A stretch of 64,000 nucleotides of DNA from Symbiotaphrina buchneri (lineage: Eukaryota > Ascomycota > Symbiotaphrinales > Symbiotaphrinaceae). Below the pieces are notes generated by a model, which was not told the DNA's origin, searched no databases, and worked only from the letters and a program-made list of their open reading frames with translations. Every line of letters starts with the position of its first letter. The first letter of the stretch is position 1. Shown one piece after another: positions 6,906 through 44,946 of this stretch. The position numbers were made by a program, and so were the translations under genes. Location of the stretch: assembly GCA_001599915.1 (NCBI GenBank), contig BCIG01000008.1, positions 248,001-312,000 of the forward strand. Direction: 5' to 3'.

Positions 6906-7918
6906 CCTGCGTACCGCTGCTACCTGGGGGTTCGAGGAAAGGCCAGTGTAAGGGGAGGTACTCGTGGACCCCGTCGTCCTCAGACCTCTCGTCCAAGACG
7001 AAGCGCCCTGCGGCCAGGCTAGTGGAGCTAGGAATCTAATCTAGGCCCGCGTCCGGGTGTAAAACGGTGCTCGTCCTGAAGTCATCCCAGTCTCACCACT
7101 CCACAAATGCGCAACCGGCAATTGGGCGTTGGTGCCACCGCTCTCGATGTTTCCCGGGTACTGATCACTGGCTCCCCGTTCGTCTGTTCTTGCGCCCGGC
7201 CCAGGTCCGTGGACGCCAGAAGCAGTGATACCGTACTCCAGGACCCTGCGCTTGCCCCTGTACGCGCCTCTCCAACTACAATTCTGGAACGACCGCAATC
7301 TTTTTTTTCCCAGCCTGCCAGGTACGACTGCCGGACGCCAACCCAGTCCAAAACTGACGATTTCAGACGCCTCGTGCCATCCTCTTTCTCGCCTAGGCCT
7401 TGACGAACCTGTTGGGTTCATCCTGTTACCTAGCTCTGACGGCGATCGTTATAGCCCCTGGGAATGTGGTGGTCAATGATATGACCACCCATTCCCTGCT
7501 GTGACCGGGCTCTGCAGGCTTGATCCGCGATTGAAAAGGCTCTTGGATCCCTGAGCTTGCAGCTTGCTTGGTCCCCGGAGGCACAGGAACGTCCGGTCGA
7601 GCGCCCAGGGCAAGACGCTGGCAGACCTTTGCGCCTGGCAGACCTACTAGAGTTCTACTTGGACCTGCATACGCACTTATATATCGAGGCTCTGCCTGCC
7701 GCAATCGTCGGTCGTCTGTCGGCGTGGTGCGTGTTCGGTAGCGGCGGCATCCCAGTCAAGTCCATACCCCGGTTATCTTGCAGACATTAAGCATTTTTGA
7801 TGGTGCTGCAGTCCCATAACGGACCACCAAGTCAAGAGGACAACGTCATATCACTGCGACCAATGCGGCCATCTGTTCCCCCCTTGTGGATACAGCTGCC
7901 TGCGCATGCAGATATCCC

Positions 7919-9307
7919 ATGTCCTCGAAACCTCCACCGCCTCCGTCGATATACCAACGTGACAGAGTCGACACATCATTCATGACCGAAACACAGCGGA
8001 GCGAAGGTGGGGCTCTACCCCTGCCTCCTCCATCTCTCCTGGCGCAGTCGTATGGAGGACAGCGTCTACCTCCGTTTGATCGTCTTACTCCTCTCGAGAT
8101 ACCTAAGCCCTTACCTCCTTATCCTCCCGCTGTTCAACCAGCTTTTCCACAATATGGCGACCAAGTCTTACCTATCATTCGCTCGGCCCAGCCACCACAG
8201 TATCAACTCCCGCAGCAGCCCCAAAGCAGTGCAACGTCTGCGGAGAGGTGGTCTGCGGTGCCCCTCGATAGAATACTGTCCAGCCAGCCACAGGCTTCGC
8301 CTAGATCGGACTCCAACTATTCTCCGCGCCGTATTTCCACGCTGTCTCCGCTTTCTGAAGCGTCTTCGCGGATACCGGGAAACTGGGCCCCCGACCGTGC
8401 TCCATACGACGAGCAAAAGTCAGTTATCCCATGTTTTCGGCGCCGAGACGATGCTGACTTCACCTGTAGGGATTTTGCCCCGCCGCTTCTGTCGCCCTCA
8501 TATGGCCAAGATAGGCGGGCTCCTCCCTATGGAGCAGCCGCTCCGGGCTACTATGAACCGCCTAGGCCACAACCTGCTCTTGTTGGGCACGATGTTCCAC
8601 TTCATTCAAGGTTAGTTTTTCATGGCTCGATCGCTTGCGCGCGCTCTCACAATCTCAGCTCCAACAGGTTTGAGCTTCGGGTCCGTCAGCAGCCCCTCGC
8701 AGCACGAGCCTGTGGCTTTGGGGAGCGAGATCGGCGTGTAGTCGACCCTCCACCAATCGTACAATTACACTTGAAGGATCCTCATGGTGATCCTGCGGAG
8801 CTTCGATACCCCTTTCACGTTGTGCATTGTACATTATGGAATGAAGATGGCTCGAACGATGAGACGGCACTTCTGCAGGCGGAGAGGCGAACGACACGGA
8901 GACTGATGGGAACCCTGGTTGCCTCTCCCTTTGTGGGCATGGACGAAAACGATGAAGAGGGTTGCTTTTTCTGCTTTCCCGACCTCTCATGCCGCACTCA
9001 CGGCAGGTATCGACTCAAATTTGTCCTCATGAGGCTAGAGGCTAGTGAGCTCAATCCTGGCGGCTTTAGCCCGATCGTTGCCCGGACAATGAGTGACGTC
9101 TTCACTGTCTACACGGCAAAGGACTTCCCTGACATGAGGGCCAGCACTGCATTGACCAAGGCCTTGAAAGCCCAGGGCTGCGCGATCTCCGTGAAGAAAG
9201 GGAATGAAAAGGCGACCCCACACGGTCGGGACGATAACAGCGGCGAGGACGATGGGGCCGACATGGTCTCAAGCGGAAGAAAGGGAAAAAGGCGAAGAAA
9301 AGAATAG
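7919..9307 (+). CDS. velC: Velvet-domain transcriptional regulator, VelC type
   Basis: Velvet proteins are fungal DNA-binding or co-regulator proteins, with an NF-kB-like fold, that control sporulation, sexual development and secondary metabolism. The first ATG of the long frame is at 7919 (MSSKPPPPPS). Two introns fit, 8419-8469 (51 bp) and 8611-8667 (57 bp), giving about 426 residues. The N-terminal half is Pro/Ser/Gln-rich and disordered. The C-terminal velvet domain starts at FELRVRQQP and contains ARACGFGERDRR, PPPIVQL, HCTLWNEDG, GTLVASPFVG, FCFPDLSCRT, GRYRLKF and FTVYTAKDFPGM-like DFPDMRAST. A basic tail (GKRRRKE) could be a nuclear signal. The single uninterrupted domain and long N-terminus match VelC better than VosA or VelB, whose domains I remember as differing; the subfamily call is from memory. 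Both introns are multiples of three and free of stops. Confidence 0.82.
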   Translation: MSSKPPPPPSIYQRDRVDTSFMTETQRSEGGALPLPPPSLLAQSYGGQRLPPFDRLTPLEIPKPLPPYPPAVQPAFPQYGDQVLPIIRSAQPPQYQLPQQPQSSATSAERWSAVPLDRILSSQPQASPRSDSNYSPRRISTLSPLSEASSRIPGNWAPDRAPYDEQKSVIPCFRRRDDADFTCRDFAPPLLSPSYGQDRRAPPYGAAAPGYYEPPRPQPALVGHDVPLHSRLVFHGSIACARSHNLSSNRFELRVRQQPLAARACGFGERDRRVVDPPPIVQLHLKDPHGDPAELRYPFHVVHCTLWNEDGSNDETALLQAERRTTRRLMGTLVASPFVGMDENDEEGCFFCFPDLSCRTHGRYRLKFVLMRLEASELNPGGFSPIVARTMSDVFTVYTAKDFPDMRASTALTKALKAQGCAISVKKGNEKATPHGRDDNSGEDDGADMVSSGRKGKRRRKE

Positions 9308-10005: not shown

Positions 10006-12050
10006 ATGAAGTACGTTCTTGTTTCCGGAGGTCAGTATACGCCAGAAAGGTCCCGCAAATCTTATGCTCAATTCGTTCAGGTGTCATAAGCGGCATCGGG
10101 AAGGGCGTTATCGGTATGCCCCAGGGATCCTGCCGTGTCACAGACATGCTTTGCTCACGCGTTTGTAGCCTCTTCCACAGGCCTTCTTTTGAAGACGCTC
10201 GGCTTGAAGATATGTGCTCCTCTTTGTCGCGTGGTCCTTGCGCAGGAGCTCCAATCCAATGCTGACGGGCTTTGTACGTCTCATCAATCAAGGTCGACCC
10301 TTACATGAACGTTGATGCCGGCACCATGGCGCCCACGGAGTATGTGTGAAGGCGCGAGCATCATTTGGATGTGTCGGTTACTGAAACCTCTTCTAGGCAT
10401 GGGGAAGTCTTTGTTCTAGACGATGGCGGTGAGGTAGACCTCGACCTTGGGAACTACGAGCGCTACCTCAGCATCACCCTGACTCGGGAGAACAACATCA
10501 CCACTGGGAAGATATACCAACATGTTATCGAACGGGAACGTAGAGGTGACTACCTCGGCCGGACTGTTCAGGTGGTGCCCCATCTCACGGACGCGATTCA
10601 AGACTGGATCGAGCGGGTTGCCAAGATACCCGTAGACGACACAAAGGAAGAACCCGACGTGTGCATCATTGAGTTGGGTGGCACAGTGGGTGATATTGAA
10701 AGCGCCCCTTTCATCGAGGCGATGAGGCAATTGAGGCGCAGAGCGGGGAAGAATAACTTCGTACAAATTCACGTCTCCTTGGTACCCGTGGTTAGCGGAG
10801 AGCAAAAGACAAAGCCTACGCAACAAGCCACCAGAGATGTGCGCAGCGCAGGGCTCAGTCCAGATCTGGTATGATTGGATGACCGCCAATCTGATTTTCC
10901 TTCTGATCATGCTGAACCTTCTCAGATTGCCTGCCGTTGCGAGCAACCGTTGGAGACCGCAACCATCGAGAAGATTGCCATGCACTGCCAGGTCGAACCG
11001 GAAAATGTTCTGGCTGTTCACAACGTGACCACCACCTACCATGTACCGTTACTTCTTGAGAAACAACGGTTAATCCCCACGTTGCGAGAAATTCTTCGTC
11101 TGGATACGGTCGCTATATCTCCTGCATTGGCCAAGAAAGGCGCCAGCACCTGGAAGGAGTGGAAGACGCTGACCACAGCGCAAGAGAGACTCTTTGAATC
11201 GGTGACCATTGCGCTAGTGGGAAAATACACCAACCTCCACGACTCCTATCTGAGTGTGATAAAGTCGCTGGAACATGCTGCAATGCGTTGTGGCAAAAAA
11301 TTGAATCTCATCTGGGTTGACGCTTCCCATCTCGAAACTCAGACAAGCCTGGAAAGCCCAGCAGATTTCCACAAGGCTTGGCATGCCGTCTGTACCGCCC
11401 AGGGCATTCTGGTTCCTGGTGGATTTGGGCTTCGAGGCACAGAGGGAATGATCTCCGCGGCTAAGTGGGCCCGGGAAAACAAGATCCCCTACCTGGGTGT
11501 CTGCCTGGGGATGCAAATTGCGGTCATCGAGTTTGCCAGGCATATTTGCGGCATGCCAAATGCATCTTCGGTGGAGTTACACGCCGAATGTGAGGATCCA
11601 GTGGTAATATTCATGCCTGAGATTGACAAGGTGACAATGGGTGGTACCATGCGGCTCGGGCTGAGGCCGACTTTGTTCCAGGAAGGAAGCGAATGGAGCA
11701 GGCTGAGGGCGCTTTATGGTGAGGCAAAATCAATCAATGAGCGTCACCGCCACCGATACGAAGTCAATCCCGCATATATCGACAGACTGGCTGAAGCTGG
11801 TCTTACTTTCATTGGCAAGGACGACAAGGGCGAAAGGATGGAAGTGTTGGAGCTCAAAGACCACCCGTATTACGTTGGCGTCCAATTTCATCCAGAGTAT
11901 ACGAGCCGAGTGTTGGATCCAAGCCGGCCTTATCTGGGCCTGGTGGCAGCCAGTGCCGGATGTCTTGAGGAGGTGACGGCGCAGATGGCTCTGGCAAAGG
12001 AGCAGATAGAGAAGGGGGCGGTAAATGGCACGCATGGTGTCAGCATCTGA
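10006..12050 (+). CDS. URA7: CTP synthase
   Basis: Makes CTP from UTP, ATP and glutamine, the last step of pyrimidine nucleotide synthesis in the cytosol. Six exons give 585 residues, the usual length for the family. Introns: 10031-10080, 10114-10168, 10210-10277, 10340-10396 and 10869-10925. The synthase domain starts [18 protein letters not shown] and includes IDPYMN-like [31 protein letters not shown] and GEQKTKPTQ. The class-I glutamine amidotransferase domain has its nucleophile in GVCLGMQ (about Cys404) and the His-Glu pair in HPEYTS. Four introns are ordinary GT-AG. The third reads ATATGT...GCTGAC...TTTGTAC, an AT-AC intron; only this splice gives the conserved junction [14 protein letters not shown], and the whole frame closes only with it. 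The identification is very secure. Confidence 0.97.
10210..10277 (+). other. Apparent U2-type AT-AC intron in CTP synthase
   Basis: A 68-bp intron with ATATGT at its 5' end, a standard ascomycete branch site GCTGAC at 10261-10266, and TTTGTAC at its 3' end. The usual donor GTATGT and acceptor TAG each carry one change, first G to A and last G to C. The 5' end does not match the U12 consensus ATATCC. Exon phase is 0 on both sides. Using the internal GT at 10214 with either nearby AG leads to a stop at once. Confidence 0.85.
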
Positions 12051-25304: not shown

Positions 25305-25744
25305 GTTGGGCGACTATGAGCAGCGGCTCAGCAGGAGGAAAAAGGAACGGATGTAATTATGAGCGCGGGACTATGGAAGAACAGGCGGCAGCTTCCAGGC
25401 ACATGTCGCTCCGCGTGTGTATTTCGATTGCAAGAGATGCGCAACCCAAACTATCCTCGCGATAGTTGAGCACTAAGGCCACATTTGAGAAATTTGACAG
25501 CGGTCGGTGTAGTTAGTGCACGCCTGTACCCAGGGGTGATAGGTAGCGGACGATCGAGGGGGTGGGATCAGGGGGTCTGCGGTCGCGGTCGACCAACCTC
25601 GCAAGGTGACAGCGAGCGACACGGCAACTTCCACCTCCATCTTGCGCGCGACTTCCACTGCCCAGGAGCCAGAAGGTGGGAAACGCGTGAAGCGACTCCA
25701 GCGAACGCTCGTCATAACACATTGCGAGCAGTACAAGTATCGAG
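25305..25744. promoter_or_regulatory. Divergent promoter region between the ZIP transporter and HAT1
   Basis: 440 bp between two divergent start codons, so both promoters should be here. No distinct TATA box or known operator was recognised. Confidence 0.5.
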
Positions 25745-27390
25745 ATGGCAGAGTCTGAGGAATGTAAGGCAGAACACATCCCTGCCTCTCACACACAAAT
25801 ACCAGCTGACTCTGCGCGGTGCAGGGTCATCCGATGCGAACGATGCCGTGGAGATCTCTCTTGTACACGCCGGGTCTGAAGCTCCGGAGCCCATAGCAAC
25901 GTTCCACCCTAGGTTCACCTACCCAATATTCGGGGACGAAGAGACCATCTTCGGATATCAGGGTCTTAAGATCCATATTCTCTTCACTGCGCATGATCTC
26001 CAACCGAACTTGGAGATAACTTGGGACAAGAAATTCAAGCCAATCGGGGAGACAAAGGCCGCCGATATCGAGGAGCAACTAAGGGTCTGGCTGCCGGAGT
26101 GTAGGTATTCTCTTGCTTGTTATGTGCTGTGCTAATATGACATGCCAGCGGCTTTCCAAAAGGCTGCTAGCTTCAATGCCAGGGTCCAGAATGACACATC
26201 GGCTCCCGACTTCAAGCCTCCCGGAACACTCATAACGACATATAAAAAGGGAGCCAAGACGTTTGAGATTTGGTCAGGAAGATTGACAGATCCTGCTGTT
26301 CGGGCGATGGTGGGCCGGATGCAAATCTTCGTACCTTTCTTTATCGAGGGTGGCACATATATCAACCTCGAAGACCCTGAGTGGACTATCTCCCGGTGGA
26401 CCATCTTCTTCCTGTAGGTCATCTCCCTACATTATCTTGCAGTACTGACTTCCGAGGTACAGTTATGAAAAGTCGTCCTCTCCTCCGACTCCTCTGTCGT
26501 CTCCTTATTCGATCTGCGGATATGCAACCGCCTACCGCTACTATCTTTACGACCCTGTGCTGCCTCGTCCATCATCAAATCAACCGCCCCGGCCTCTACA
26601 CCGAGAAGCAAATCAGAAATTCACTCTCCCCTTTCCCGAGACCATCACTCCTTTCTCCCTTCCCAGCCGCGAGCGCATATCTCAATTCATCATCCTCCCT
26701 CCATTCCAAGGCCAAGGCCATGGAAATAAGCTGTACAACACCCTGGTCAACACTTTTCTCGGAGACCCAACTGTCATTGAAATCACAGTGGAAGATCCGA
26801 ATGAAGCATTCGATGACCTCCGCGACTACTGTGACCTTGCTCGTCTGCGTGCGAACGGTACTCTAGCACAAATAAAGATCAACACATCAATAACGCTGCC
26901 GAAGAGACGGCGCATACCCATCTCACAACTCATTGACCAAACTCTCCTGGAGGAACTGCGGTTGAAGAACAAGATAGCCCCTCGTCAGTTCTCCAGGTTG
27001 GTGGAGATGCACCTGCTATCTCTGATTCCACCCCGCAACCGGCAGACGGCGAGACTTACGCGGAAGGCCAATTCGGCGGATGAGCATGATCGTGCATATT
27101 ACTTCTGGCGACTAATCGTAAAGCAACGGCTTTACAAACACAACAAGGATCAATTGGCCCAGTTGGACCGGCTAGACCGCATCGATAAGTTGGAGGAGAC
27201 ATTGGGCAATGTGGAGGGGGATTACGTGCGGTTATTACGGGGTGCAGAGCGTGGTATCCAAACCGACGAGGAGCCCATTGGAGCGGTCGCAGGGACACAA
27301 GATGAAAAGAAAGATAGAGGGAGGAAGAGGGTAATATCGGACGATGACGAAGAAGGTGTGGAACCCGCATCGAAAAAGGCGAAGGCATGA
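25745..27390 (+). CDS. HAT1: Histone acetyltransferase type B catalytic subunit
   Basis: Acetylates newly made histone H4 (Lys5 and Lys12 in other fungi) before nuclear import and chromatin assembly, normally with the WD40 partner Hat2. Four exons (25745-25763, 25825-26100, 26149-26413, 26463-27390; introns of 61, 48 and 49 bp) give 495 residues. The 19-nt first exon encodes MAESEE plus one base and joins to WSSDANDAVEISLVH. Family hallmarks are FGDEETIFGYQGLKI, PGTLITTYKKGAKTFEIW, MQIFVPFFIEGGTYI, EKSSSPPTPLSSPYSICGYA, the acetyl-CoA-binding loop FQGQGHG (about residue 269) and VEDPNEAFDDLRDYCDL. The C-terminal tail is basic and acidic with a likely nuclear signal (RGRKRVISDDDEE, KKAKA). It ends 187 bp from the convergent PDA1 stop. 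Confidence 0.97.
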
Positions 27391-29096: not shown

Positions 29097-32000
29097 CCTT
29101 CGCAATGCCGTGGAGGATGATGTGACGCAGGAGGATATCCGTTAGCAGGAGGTGCCGCTGCAGATTATTCAATCAAATGTTGCTGCTAGCGCTCGGTGTT
29201 GGGAGCAGTTGAGAAGGATCGCCGCGATACCTGATTGGGTCAACCAATCGAGCCACTTCACCCCTGTCCTAAGAAGTCACCGCGGTCTTTTAAGTGACTG
29301 CGCAACCCTTTTGTCCAAACTACTACAGGATCGTGAGCAGTAACCACTTGGGCAGGACAGGATGATGACAAGGACCGATGTGCCTGGTGATAAAAGGTCC
29401 CAGATTCATGACTCTGGAAGCCGTATGAAGTATCATTAACCGCGCTTCTCAGGACAGGTGAGCTTCGGCGGCCCGGGGAGTCCCGAGAAAGCTGTGCTCT
29501 TGTCCGATATGACAACATGCCTACCGTACCTGGTATCTCAAGTTGCACGATATGCCAGTATGGAGCTGATGACATTTACCTGTGTCCTTCTCGACTCTCG
29601 TGACGTTCGTGACGTTCGTGGGGAAGTAGACCAGGTGTATTGAATAGGAAGCCCTGGATAGCATTGCTGGCCAAGTTCACAACCTGGCACAGACAGTTTC
29701 GGATCCTCAACACCATACCTTATGCTGGCAGAAAAGAACCCTATTTGGATCTTGCTTCGGCATTGCTATCAAATTAATATGATAACCACTCTACCAAAAA
29801 ATGATCAGCCATTCCCGGCCTTCCAATCCATTGGCAGGCTAACTCTGGGCTTTGAATACTACCTGATGGGGTGCTTTTCATTCAAGATTTTACTATTCGG
29901 TCAGTTCCCGTGGTTTTGCCCCATAGCATTGCTTCTTCTGTGGGCCCGTCTCAGCCATCTACATGCGGCACCATCTACGGTACCGAGCTTCTGCATCTCT
30001 TGGGAGTATGCAGGAAACAACAGTACCAGGTGCCTGGGAGCATTTCAGGAGATCACTCGTTTCGGGCGGTCTCATTACGACTAGGTGCATCAGCTCTGGA
30101 GGCTGATAATCCATAGTCAGGGATAAAGTCAAACTGAAACCCCCGGACAAGCTTTGGATGTCTTCCGTGTATTTACTCAAGAGTTGAAGTCTTATCCTGA
30201 TGGAAGATCTTCCTGGCTGATTGACCAACGGCGTGCATTATTTGATTTCTGCTATCTCCTAAGCCCTTTAAACTGTGCTTATTGCTCATATGATGTGATA
30301 CCCGTTTGCTCCAGCTTAATGGGCTTTTTTGAACAACGTTAGATTTCTTACCATGCACCAACACTGAGAAAGCCACCGTGTGCAGCAGACTTTTTCAAGG
30401 CTCGTTTGGGATTCTTTCGCTACCAGTTCCATACCTGGCTCTCCCTTGAACTCGATCAGCCCCCTTATCATCCCATCGTAGCGAATAGCTTTTCTTCACC
30501 CCGGAGATCGATGCCACCACAACTTAATGTCTTGTTTCGATTATAACCTGTCACAGTGATGATCGCTGAGCACCATTTCACTGAACGTTTCTAGCTGTGT
30601 AGTATAACAAACGGGGACTCATTTTCACACTGCAAGTTACTGCACAACCGTCTATCGTCTTTTAAATCTATATTTTATGAAGACGACTCGTACTTGTGGA
30701 GCATTTTTGATCTAAAAGACTTCAAGTGTGGAATCCGCTTTTGAACAAACTAGGGGGTAATAAAATGCCACTTTCAAGTCGGAACGAGGAAGGACCATGT
30801 GGACGTTGAAATGACATGAGCATGTCGTAACCAAAGCCAACGACGAGCCTTCGGTTCAAGCAGAATCACAGCTCTGTTTACACTATGACGGTGATCTTTC
30901 TAGACAATCTATGAGTGAATGCCCCAAGTGAGGGACTCAAAGCGGGCACTCTGGATCCTGACGGTACCCGAGGGGGAGTCGGCAGCGCCCCAATTGAAGC
31001 CAATTGGAAAGTTTGGAGGCCTTACTCCGTATGTTCTTGCAAATAGACTTAAGGAGGCAGTCGATGAAACGAGAAACTATCGCTTTGTCCGCTACAGTCC
31101 TTCAAGCAGGCGGCGCATTGACGCTCAACTGGGCCGAAAGTAAGGACAAGGTAATCTACCGGTACCTGAGGATGCCGTCCTCCCGCTCCGTAGACCGTAC
31201 CATGGGGCTGTTCCGAGATTATTTTGGGCGCCATAGTCCGAAATTTAGAAGTCTCGTGCAATAATATGGCTCTTAATGATTGCCGAGACTCATTCTGTAC
31301 TCGGTATGTCCAGGCCTTTTTCAGCTTATCCGGTGACCATGGCTTTGATGCATCTGTAGACGCAGATATGCGCACCAACTGCCATCATAGCAGGCAGAGC
31401 AAGGTAGGTGTACCCCGTATGCTAGGTTGGCATTGAAACTGATCTTAATTTTTTACCAGAAGTACGATGGTTTCCGGGACCTTTGAATAACCCATAACCA
31501 TGGTACAACGTACATGCTGCAAATACAAGCTGCATGCTGAACCGACTACGGCACTGGTGCCCAAGATAGAACACTACTAGAACATCAGCCTTTGCAGGAC
31601 AAGATGGCGTACATCTGCAGATTGTCGGTAGCCCCGCCATGTACGATTTATTAGCCATACTCCGTACTACCTTACGTCTTCGCTCCCTGATAAAAGAGAC
31701 AGGGTAAATGAGCTCAGACCACTACCAAGTCGATGATGCACGCTTCATTTGGCTTGTCGTACCCTTAGTCGAGAAGATATTGCGTATACGGCACATGGTG
31801 ACTGACAGTCCAGCTCCCGGACCGTTGTTGATTATTCCAACTTTCCGACCCACTCGGCAAAAAGCTGGCTACCCCTGGAAGCGGATGCGCAAACCCGAAA
31901 GCCGGTAATCAAACCAGACTTATGATTGGTCTGTCCTTCCAGGGCCTCGGACCTGGGACAGTTGCGGGTATCGGCCTGAGCGGATGCGGGTTTCAGATGA

Positions 32001-40373: not shown

Positions 40374-42544
40374 ATGGATCAGAGCTTCACCGGCCCGGCG
40401 AGTCCGATGCGCAGGCAAAGAGATTCAATAGAGTCGGGGGACGAGGAAATATCGCCAAGCATGCAGGCATCCCGCAGAGAGAGCATCCCAACACAGCATC
40501 CAAGGCCACTCCCTTCGCCAAGCAAACGTCCGTCTCCTCTGCCCCCTAGTCTTCTACCCTCCGCACCTGCCTCGCCTCCGACCCCCGCTCCAAGTCCGAC
40601 TCCCCATCAGCGGGCCCCTAGCTGGAACAACGCTGGAGAGAATGAAGATGCTTTTCTGAGAGATGCAAGAGCCCATTTCAGCAAACTTGGCAGTGCTGAA
40701 CGTCAGAGATATTTGGCCGAGATCCTGAACCTTTGTGATAGTCCACAACTCAGCTTCGTACATAACTTCGTCAGCCCGCGGCTGAAAAAAGATCCGTTCA
40801 CATATTTGCCAGACGAGCTGTGCCTCAAGGTAAGCGCCTCATCGGCTCGCTCTATGATCCATGCTCTAACTAGTCCACATCAGATTCTCCAATTTATGGA
40901 TGAGCCACGTGCTCTAGCACGAGCGTCACAGGTGTCGAAGAGATGGCATCAGCTGTTGAGCGATGATATGACATGGAAGAATCTTTCGGAAAGGCACGGT
41001 TACCGTCGACTTTCGGAAGGATCTGAGACCTTCAATGAAACCATGTTTCCCTTCATGGAGACCCACAGCCTTGGAAGGGACCAGTCACCGAACAGTTCAG
41101 GCTTTTATGGATACGCTTCAGGCGGCTCCAACAGTGTTCCTAATCTCATGGAAGCGGCCTCGGACAACCCGTCCAGCTCCAAGTCCTCCACTCACCGTGC
41201 GGTACTGTCTTACAAGTCCCACTTCAAGCAGAGGTACATGGTGGAGTCAGCATGGCGTCACGGTGGAGTTGTCAAACGGCAGCATATCACTCCCGATCAA
41301 GGGGTGGTAACCAGTCTGCATCTGACGCCTAAATACATAGTGGTCGCCCTCGACAACGCCAAGATCCACGTATTTGACACAGAAGGCGAGCTCCTGAAGA
41401 CACTTCAGGGACATGTCATGGGAGTGTGGGCTATGGTTCCTTGGGACGATACTCTTGTCAGCGGTGGGTGCGACCGAGATGTCAGAGTGTGGAATATGGC
41501 GACGGGGTGAGTCCGCATCCTAAGCGTCTGGCACAATTTCTGATTATTTCGCAGACAAAGTATCCACACTCTCAGGGGCCACACCTCTACAGTTCGCTGT
41601 CTGAAGATGTCGGATGCGAACACTGCCATTTCAGGCTCAAGGGACACGACGCTACGAATCTGGGATATACCGACAGGTATTTGCAAGAATGTCCTGGTTG
41701 GTCATCAAGCTAGCGTTAGGTGTCTGGAAATCAACGAAGACCTTGTGGTATCCGGCAGCTATGATACTACCGCTCGGGTGTGGAGTATCTCCGAAGGTAG
41801 ATGTCTTAGAACACTTACAGGCCATTTTAGCCAGATCTATGCCATAGCGTTTGATGGGAAGAGAATTGCCACTGGTAGTTTGGATACTAGTGTTCGAGTC
41901 TGGGATCCGTACACAGGGTGAGTAGTCTTTGACTGCAGCAGGGCGGCTCTAACGTGGTTTAGTCAATGCCAAGCGATCTTACAGGGACACACGTCTCTTG
42001 TTGGACAGCTACAGATGCGCGGCGATACTCTGGTCACCGGAGGCTCCGATGGCTCTGTAAGGATCTGGTCACTCAAGAAAATGGCTCCCATCCATCGTCT
42101 CGCGGCGCATGACAACAGCGTGACGAGTCTTCAATTTGACGACGTGCGTGTGGTCAGCGGGGGCAGCGATGGTCGCGTTAAAGTCTGGGATTTGAAGACC
42201 GGCCAGCTCGTCCGAGAGCTTGGGTCACCTGCCGAGGCTGTTTGGAGGGTGGCATTCGAATCAGAGAGAGCTGTAATCATGGCTAGTAGGGCCAACAGAA
42301 CCATCATGGAGGTGAGCCGAGTTGGACACTGGTGACGCATTGGCCTGTATTAATGTGTCGACAGGTCTGGTCGTTTTCACCGCCAGAAGAAGCCTTGGTC
42401 GAGAGATACCGGTCTGGTAGCCCGGCCAGCTTGCCGGATCAGATCCTGAGTGGGTATGATAATCGGAGCAGCGGATCGCGAATGTCGGAGGAGCCAGACG
42501 TCGCCATGCAAGATGCTTTCGACCTCGGCATGGAGACTGCCTGA
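40374..42544 (+). CDS. F-box/WD40 SCF ubiquitin-ligase substrate receptor, Cdc4/Fbw7 type
   Basis: Predicted to bring phosphorylated substrates to an SCF ubiquitin ligase through Skp1. Five exons (40374-40829, 40884-41506, 41555-41917, 41963-42311, 42365-42544; introns of 54, 48, 45 and 53 bp) give 656 residues. After a Pro/Ser-rich N-terminus, a helical dimerisation-like segment (LRDARAHFSKLGSAERQRYL) precedes the F-box (FTYLPDELCLKILQFMDEP, ARASQVSKRWHQLLSDD). Seven to eight WD40 blades follow, with hallmark endings DVRVWNMATG, TLRIWDIPTG, TARVWSISEG, SVRVWDPYTG, SVRIWSLKK and RVKVWDLKTG. The layout resembles Cdc4/Fbw7 and beta-TrCP-like receptors; which one cannot be told by eye. The first intron splits the F-box, is a multiple of three and has no stop, so its retention would insert 18 residues into that domain. 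Confidence 0.9.
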
Positions 42545-43573: not shown

Positions 43574-44946
43574 ATGGCTTCGTCTTCGCTGGGAAAGCTA
43601 CAACCTCCCAAACGGAAAATTGAACCATACTCCCCCACATACTTTGGCGCATGCACTCTCGGCGGTGTCATTGGTAAGTCGACCCTCGCTGTATAAACAC
43701 ATATATGGTTCTTTCCGAAAGACCAGCAGCTGACCGCAATATGTTCCAGCTTGCGGTCCAACTGTGAGTAGAATACGATCTGGGAGGAGAATTTGGTCTA
43801 GGCGACTGACGGGCCATAGCACACCTCTGTGACGCCTCTAGATCTCGTGAGTTGTCTTCATCACTGGCGAGTCAATTGCTTTGAGGAGCCCTCCTGATAT
43901 GCCTCCAGGTGAAATGCCGACGCCAAGTCGATCCAAACATATATAAATCCAACGTTCAAGCATGGCGCTCAATCTACAAAGCAGAAGGCCTGCGCGGCGT
44001 ATTCTTTGGATGGAGTCCCACCTTCGTCGGGTATTCGTTCCAGGGCGCCGGCAAGTACGGCTTTTACGAGATCTTCAAGTATCTCTACGGCGAAAGGCTA
44101 TTTCCCAACATGAACAAGACCATTGTCTATCTCGGTGCAAGTGCATCGGCCGAGTTTCTTGCTGACATTGCCCTCTGCCCATGGGAGATGATCAAGGTCA
44201 GGATGCAGACGACCCTGCCGCCATATGCACACAACTTGCGTGAGGGCTGGAGCAAGATGGTTGCCAAGGAGGGCTATGGCGGGTGCGTTGATGCCATACT
44301 CCCTCGACCATTGCGGCTGCGCCAGGGCCCTCGCTGACACGAACACATGCAGGCTCTACAACGGTATCTTCCCCTTGTGGGGCCGTCAGATCCCATACAC
44401 CATGGTCAAGTTCGCAACTTTCGAGAAGACGGTCGAGTACATCTACCATTATCTGGGCAAGCCCAAGGAGAGCTACAACACCCTGCAGCAGACGGGTGTC
44501 TCGTTCCTGGGAGGATATATTGCCGGTATCGGATGTGCGGCGGTCAGTCACCCGGCTGATGTGTTGGTCAGCAAAATGAACGCCGAGCGCAAGCGTGAGT
44601 CCCTCTCCTCAATTCACTTGCGGAGATGATAACTGACAGGCGGACAGCCGGCGAGAGTGCCGTGTCGGCCATTGGACGGATCTACAAGAACATCGGATTC
44701 AAGGGCTTGTGGAACGGGCTGCCCGTCCGTATTGTCATGATCGGTGAGCTGGCGAATTAGCACCAAACCATGAATATCGCATTACTGATGTTCCTCCGCA
44801 GGTACCCTGACCGCATTCCAATGGCTCATCTACGATTCCTTCAAGGTCTACCTAGGGGTACGTCGCATGCCATCCTTGCAAAGGCTTCATGAAATGGTGC
44901 TAACATGGCTGTACGGCTTAAGCTTCCCACAACCGGTGGCCACTAA
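43574..44946 (+). CDS. MIR1: Mitochondrial phosphate carrier (SLC25A3/Mir1 family)
   Basis: Imports inorganic phosphate into the mitochondrial matrix for ATP synthesis. Eight exons (43574-43673, 43750-43763, 43820-43846, 43909-44282, 44353-44594, 44648-44743, 44802-44857, 44923-44946) give 310 residues, the family's usual size. Three mitochondrial-carrier repeats are visible. Repeat 1 has [13 protein letters not shown], followed by [34 protein letters not shown]. Repeat 2 has [11 protein letters not shown], followed by [25 protein letters not shown]. Repeat 3 has [12 protein letters not shown], followed by [28 protein letters not shown]. The end PTTGGH is common to fungal phosphate carriers. 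The first signature motif is built from two tiny exons of 14 and 27 nt. It converges on the gene at 45601. Confidence 0.95.

Follow-up and report, generated by a model that had tools for sequence, protein, structure and literature searches.

The gene for CTP synthase in the stretch of fungal DNA analyzed here (64,000 nucleotides; the window) is interrupted by an intron, intron 3, that begins with AT and ends with AC. From its letters and from the protein that they encode, we infer that this intron is very likely U2-spliced and that it came about through coupled G+1>A and G-1>C changes at its two ends. A preliminary description of the window had proposed this reading, and it stands as the best supported; the U2-type signals are intact save for the two end bases, and those of the U12 type fail. 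The coordinates of the gene and of the signals in intron 3 are collected in Table 1.

Table 1. Features of the CTP synthase gene and its AT-AC intron (window coordinates)
Feature	Position	Strand	Description	Basis
CTP synthase gene	10006..12050	+	coding span, six exons, 585 aa + stop	spliced translation, structure match, PF06418
CTP synthase exons	10006-10030, 10081-10113, 10169-10209, 10278-10339, 10397-10868, 10926-12050	+		spliced translation
Intron 1	10031..10080	+	GT-AG	frame and alignment
Intron 2	10114..10168	+	GT-AG	frame and alignment
AT-AC intron (intron 3)	10210..10277	+	phase 0, 68 nt	sole recognized end pair among 19 open 585-residue splices
5' splice site ATATGT	10210..10215	+	GTATGT-type, A at +1	donor score without +1
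Branch site GCTGAC	10261..10266	+	branch A at 10265; 12 nt of intron after A, 11 after hexamer	
3' splice site TAC	10275..10277	+	YAG-type, last base C	no AG between in-frame TGA 10263 and 10291
VSSIK codons of exon 4	10278..10292	+	include catalytic Lys38	removed by five GT-AG/GC-AG alternatives
Intron 4	10340..10396	+	GT-AG	frame and alignment
Intron 5	10869..10925	+	GT-AG	frame and alignment

Excision of the AT-AC intron together with the four GT-AG introns yields, on spliced translation, a 585-residue CTP synthase free of stops, in agreement with the preliminary description. Pfam places CTP_synth_N (PF06418) on residues 1 through 261 of this product with a score of 396.4 bits. The search of solved structures returned 27 matches, the best of which is 7rmc (CTP synthase 1; E 1.2e-246), aligned over query residues 1 through 562. 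Alignments were inspected for five of the 27, the five best, and all are ungapped over the intron 3 junction; the yeast-type sequences among these five read GLKVTSIKIDPYMN at the junction, with no gap. The organism is absent from the match table, and we take the structure sequences with GLKVTSIKIDPYMN to be of yeast origin. The CTP_synth_N domain, the full-length alignment and Lys38 are all present in the spliced AT-AC product, which marks it as a CTP synthase. An open frame of 210 codons on the opposite strand (10419-11048, -), antisense to the CTP synthase exons, is probably a by-product of codon usage.

The extent of 68 bp, the ATATGT start, the TTTGTAC end and a GCTGAC hexamer with 11 bases after it, all given in the preliminary description, are found at 10210 through 10277. 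In context the intron reads AAG/ATATGTGCTC...GCTGACGGGCTTTGTAC/GTC, and the join is exact, with no sliding possible. Retention of intron 3 ends the frame after 65 codons.

To define the splice that the protein demands, we enumerated donors from 10172 through 10261 and acceptors up to 10339 for introns of at least 30 nt. The enumeration gives 2149 donor/acceptor pairs with an open frame, only one of which yields the full 14-residue junction string; this count is partly circular, because the string is the product of the AT-AC splice itself, and a count based on a shorter string is fairer. By that measure, 19 open pairs retain a 10-residue junction string at a length of 585 residues. All 19 represent a single 68-nt gap slid through different registers, and 10210-10277 is the only recognized end pair among them. 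An in-frame TGA lies at 10263 through 10265, upstream of VSSIK, and the next AG, at 10291-10292, falls within the conserved segment. Since the frame is closed by the TGA and there is no AG before 10291, no donor can produce an exon with VSSIK from an AG acceptor. It is solely the protein junction, taken with the missing AG, that makes intron 3 convincing.

Conservation was assessed with a CTP synthase search of genome contigs (at least 592 matches and at least 589 relatives), from which the best 80 relatives were aligned. Every record among these best 80 of 589 is titled archaeal or bacterial, and the set was used for conservation only; a CTP synthase pattern search of viral contigs gave 11 matches and no relatives. 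Among the best 80 of 589 relatives, Lys occupies position 38 in 80/80, residues 40 through 42 are Asp-Pro-Tyr (Asp40, Pro41, Tyr42) in 80/80, and an insertion across positions 31 through 44 occurs in none of the 80. The junction match is strong yet not identical, as position 35 is Ser in this gene, whereas the best 80 of 589 relatives carry Thr in 72 cases and Ser in one. Registers with donors at 10211 through 10214 (ends TA-CG, AT-GT, TG-TC and GT-CT, respectively) have Val34 -> Ile as their sole change. Ile is found at position 34 in 5 of the best 80 of 589 homologues; the protein alone therefore cannot discard these four donors, and it is their end pairs, not the protein, that set them aside.

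To compare intron 3 with its surroundings, we used ten supported local GT-AG introns as reference: the four in the CTP synthase gene and six with a Pfam match spanning the junction. For the latter, 12 spliced segments were built and 10 were scanned against Pfam (ZIP and VWA were left out), with six of the ten qualifying. A second HAT1 segment, Trm732, Vps5 and M48 were dropped as reference introns, as no family match crossed the junction. The donor matrix covers positions -3 to +6. With +1 left out, AAG/ATATGT scores 7.78 bits compared with 4.03 to 7.76 for the ten supported introns, which were scored on their own training data, while the AT-AC intron lay outside the training. Scored in the same way, four GT donors within intron 3 range from -2.04 to -6.21 and two GC donors reach -10.01 and -12.07; with +1 included, the AT site scores 5.23 and the best GT donor within intron 3 scores -0.23. 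A CTRAY branch is seen in 7 of the 10 supported introns, with 10 to 19 nt from branch to end, compared with 12 nt in intron 3. At 68 nt, intron 3 is longer than all ten (48 to 57 nt). The AT and AC ends, a U2-like 5' site apart from +1, the branch site and its spacing are thus all present, as in an AT-AC intron of the major type.

The motif by itself is not unusual. ATATGT-N35..75-CTRAC-N3..20-YAC occurs twice in the window, and a first-order Markov model gives a mean of 0.57 with a maximum of 4 in 200 samples; given these numbers, the AT-AC motif alone is unremarkable. The second match, at 43739, starts inside an apparent ordinary GT-AG intron and overlaps the end of candidate intron 43674-43749. 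A scan with a fixed rule, whose thresholds for an open frame (13 and 20 codons) were set after intron 3 was known, returns three AT-AC candidates in the window (10210-10277; 30911-30967, +; 41241-41373, -) and, under the same rule, 19 GT-AG rows. The candidates 30911-30967 and 41241-41373 come from the rule without homology support, and we do not call them introns.

Several neighboring features were recorded in the window. A Velvet-factor gene (7820-9304, +) lies upstream of the CTP synthase gene on the same strand; its Pfam match comes in two stretches, suggesting an intron within the open frame. A HAT1 histone acetyltransferase gene (25470-27387, +) contains one of the supported introns (26101-26148) and encodes a HAT1 C-terminal domain of the fungal type. 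With the Velvet factor, this domain marks the window as fungal. At 43622-43846 (+) there is a gene fragment whose spliced product, of 31 residues, we take to be characteristic of the mitochondrial phosphate carrier; the fragment includes a 14-nt exon (43750-43763) between the candidate GT-AG introns 43674-43749 and 43764-43819.

Other readings of the interruption can be weighed against these data. The preliminary description held that GT-AG alternatives run into a stop immediately, and this proved incorrect: an intron ending at the AG at 10291-10292 keeps the frame open from two GT donors (10231 and 10234) and three GC donors (10216, 10240 and 10261), giving a CTP synthase with a change immediately ahead of VDPYMN. 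That the gene is spliced in this way is nevertheless very unlikely. All five splices lose VSSIK and with it Lys38, the residue found in 80/80 of the best 80 of 589 homologues; in the fly enzyme, Lys38 touches the transferred phosphate, and the K38A change dramatically reduces activity (PMC8325340). Four of the five donors (10261 left out) score only -2.04 to -12.07, against 4.03 to 7.76 for the supported introns. The CTP_synth_N match also falls by 11 to 15 bits, from 396.4 for the AT-AC product to 385.2, 382.3 and 381.7 for the three of the five products that were tested; an AT-AG splice product scores 379.8 bits. A different splice lacking AG, such as GT-CT 10214-10281 (Val34 -> Ile) or GT-AC 10231-10277 (seven additional residues), likewise leaves the frame open and retains the 10-residue string, and we regard it as extremely improbable. 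The GT-CT donor scores -6.21 and the GT-AC donor -4.53. Four GT-AC splices even keep an 11-residue string in an open frame, but they insert 5 to 9 residues, and the insertion that a GT-AC splice needs is seen in none of the best 80 of 589 homologues. We know of no standing intron class with GT-CT or GT-AC ends.

The ends of intron 3 are surrounded by the signals that an ordinary GT-AG intron has, as would be expected if base calling or assembly had corrupted a true GTATGT...TAG sequence. Such an origin would take two independent errors, placed exactly at both terminal bases of the intron and yielding the sole pair known to compensate, and the remainder of the CTP synthase gene contains no frame error; we give this explanation very little credence. 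Equally doubtful is a pseudogene or second copy with a 68-bp insertion from which no enzyme is made, as all other parts of the gene (585 codons) are intact, and a strong 5' site together with a correctly spaced branch site is hardly to be expected from a random insertion. Removal by the minor spliceosome, as a U12-type intron, would account for the AT-AC ends and for ATAT at the 5' site, and yet it has next to no probability. PMC2846911 quotes RTATCCTT as the U12 rule, from which ATATGTGC departs at +5 to +8 (GTGC in place of CCTT), which bears out the earlier remark that the U12 signal ATATCC is absent, and the best match to the U12 branch CCTTAAC within the last 38 nt is 3/7. The available text of PMC10639083 reports no convincing minor introns in Ascomycota and Basidiomycota, and by this literature on the group as a whole the minor spliceosome would be absent here; PMC7072748, on the other side, detected minor-spliceosome RNA genes in one fungal species. 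An Rfam scan of the 64-kb window found no RNA family, a result that says little about U11 and U12 elsewhere in the genome.

For step two of splicing, the two terminal bases of an intron come into contact. In a U2-spliced AT-AC intron 3, U1 and then U6 would recognize the otherwise strong 5' site AAG/ATATGT, and U2 would recognize GCTGAC as the branch site. During step two, the A that opens the intron and the C that closes it would replace the usual G-G contact of the intron ends. In yeast, A-C is the only pair that can replace G-G at the ends, and A-A appears weakly functional in mammalian introns (PMC8283771); PMC6726248, citing Parker and Siliciano, gives AT-AC as the most efficient yeast pair after GT-AG. 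The ancestor would have been a GTATGT...TAG intron that underwent one change at each end. As just two end positions differ from a textbook fungal intron, a coupled double change is the simplest history, and GTATGT...TAG ancestry is most likely. It is improbable that the AT-AC form was selected, with a slower second step allowing retention of intron 3 to set the amount of an essential, feedback-controlled CTP synthase; if it was, AT-AC should be kept in related fungi and the other introns of the gene should be GT-AG.

U2-type AT-AC introns (AT-AC II) were reportedly described by Wu and Krainer in 1997, a study cited in PMC3584512 and PMC6726248; like intron 3, they carry the signals of the major spliceosome but have AT and AC at their ends. 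The classic cases are animal, whereas intron 3 belongs to a fungal core-enzyme gene, and its branch site is strong and of the fungal type. Counts of AT-AC introns that do not follow the U12 rule exist for several species (PMC2846911), and C. elegans has at least 42 that are suspected to be real, apparently without U11, U12 and U4atac RNAs according to the available text of PMC3033335. Among the splice-site pairs annotated in fungi, AT-AC has an average share of 0.019% (PMC7072748). It was recorded in 69 of 14305 TopHat junctions of Trichoderma longibrachiatum (PMC4324775) and is among the non-canonical pairs listed for Fusarium graminearum, with Sanger confirmation of seven non-canonical genes in that species, the pairs being unspecified in the available text (PMC3577648). 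Both species have AT-AC in a filamentous fungus, as here; the available text of these two sources makes no link to CTP synthase or to the intron position.

Yeast offers the closest functional comparison in the major spliceosome. The same compensation of a first G->A by a last G->C is known from double mutants (Parker and Siliciano 1993, Chanfreau 1994; PMC6726248, PMC8283771, PMC10711555); these were made in the laboratory, whereas intron 3 is natural and would be the normal splice of its gene. The AT-AC protointron of SUT635 and an alternative AT-AC splice of RPL30 likewise represent natural use by the major spliceosome of a fungus, but SUT635 is a noncoding RNA and the RPL30 intron is normally GT-AG, and according to the available text of PMC6726248 no standard intron of S. 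cerevisiae is normally AT-AC. The AT-AC kind is thus already known in fungi and with the yeast major spliceosome, and a specialist would be only modestly surprised. In the open-access literature, which was the scope of the search, we found no report of this intron. That intron 3 is of a rare but known kind, located in the gene of a core enzyme, is well supported.

According to the available text of PMC8283771, the geometry that cryo-EM shows for the G-G end pair has no A-C equivalent; a natural A-C intron that must be spliced well would therefore be a useful substrate for this question. Gene finders limited to GT-AG and GC-AG could mis-splice this CTP synthase, deleting its catalytic lysine. 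As a natural candidate for compensating change at both ends of an intron, intron 3 is a clean case.
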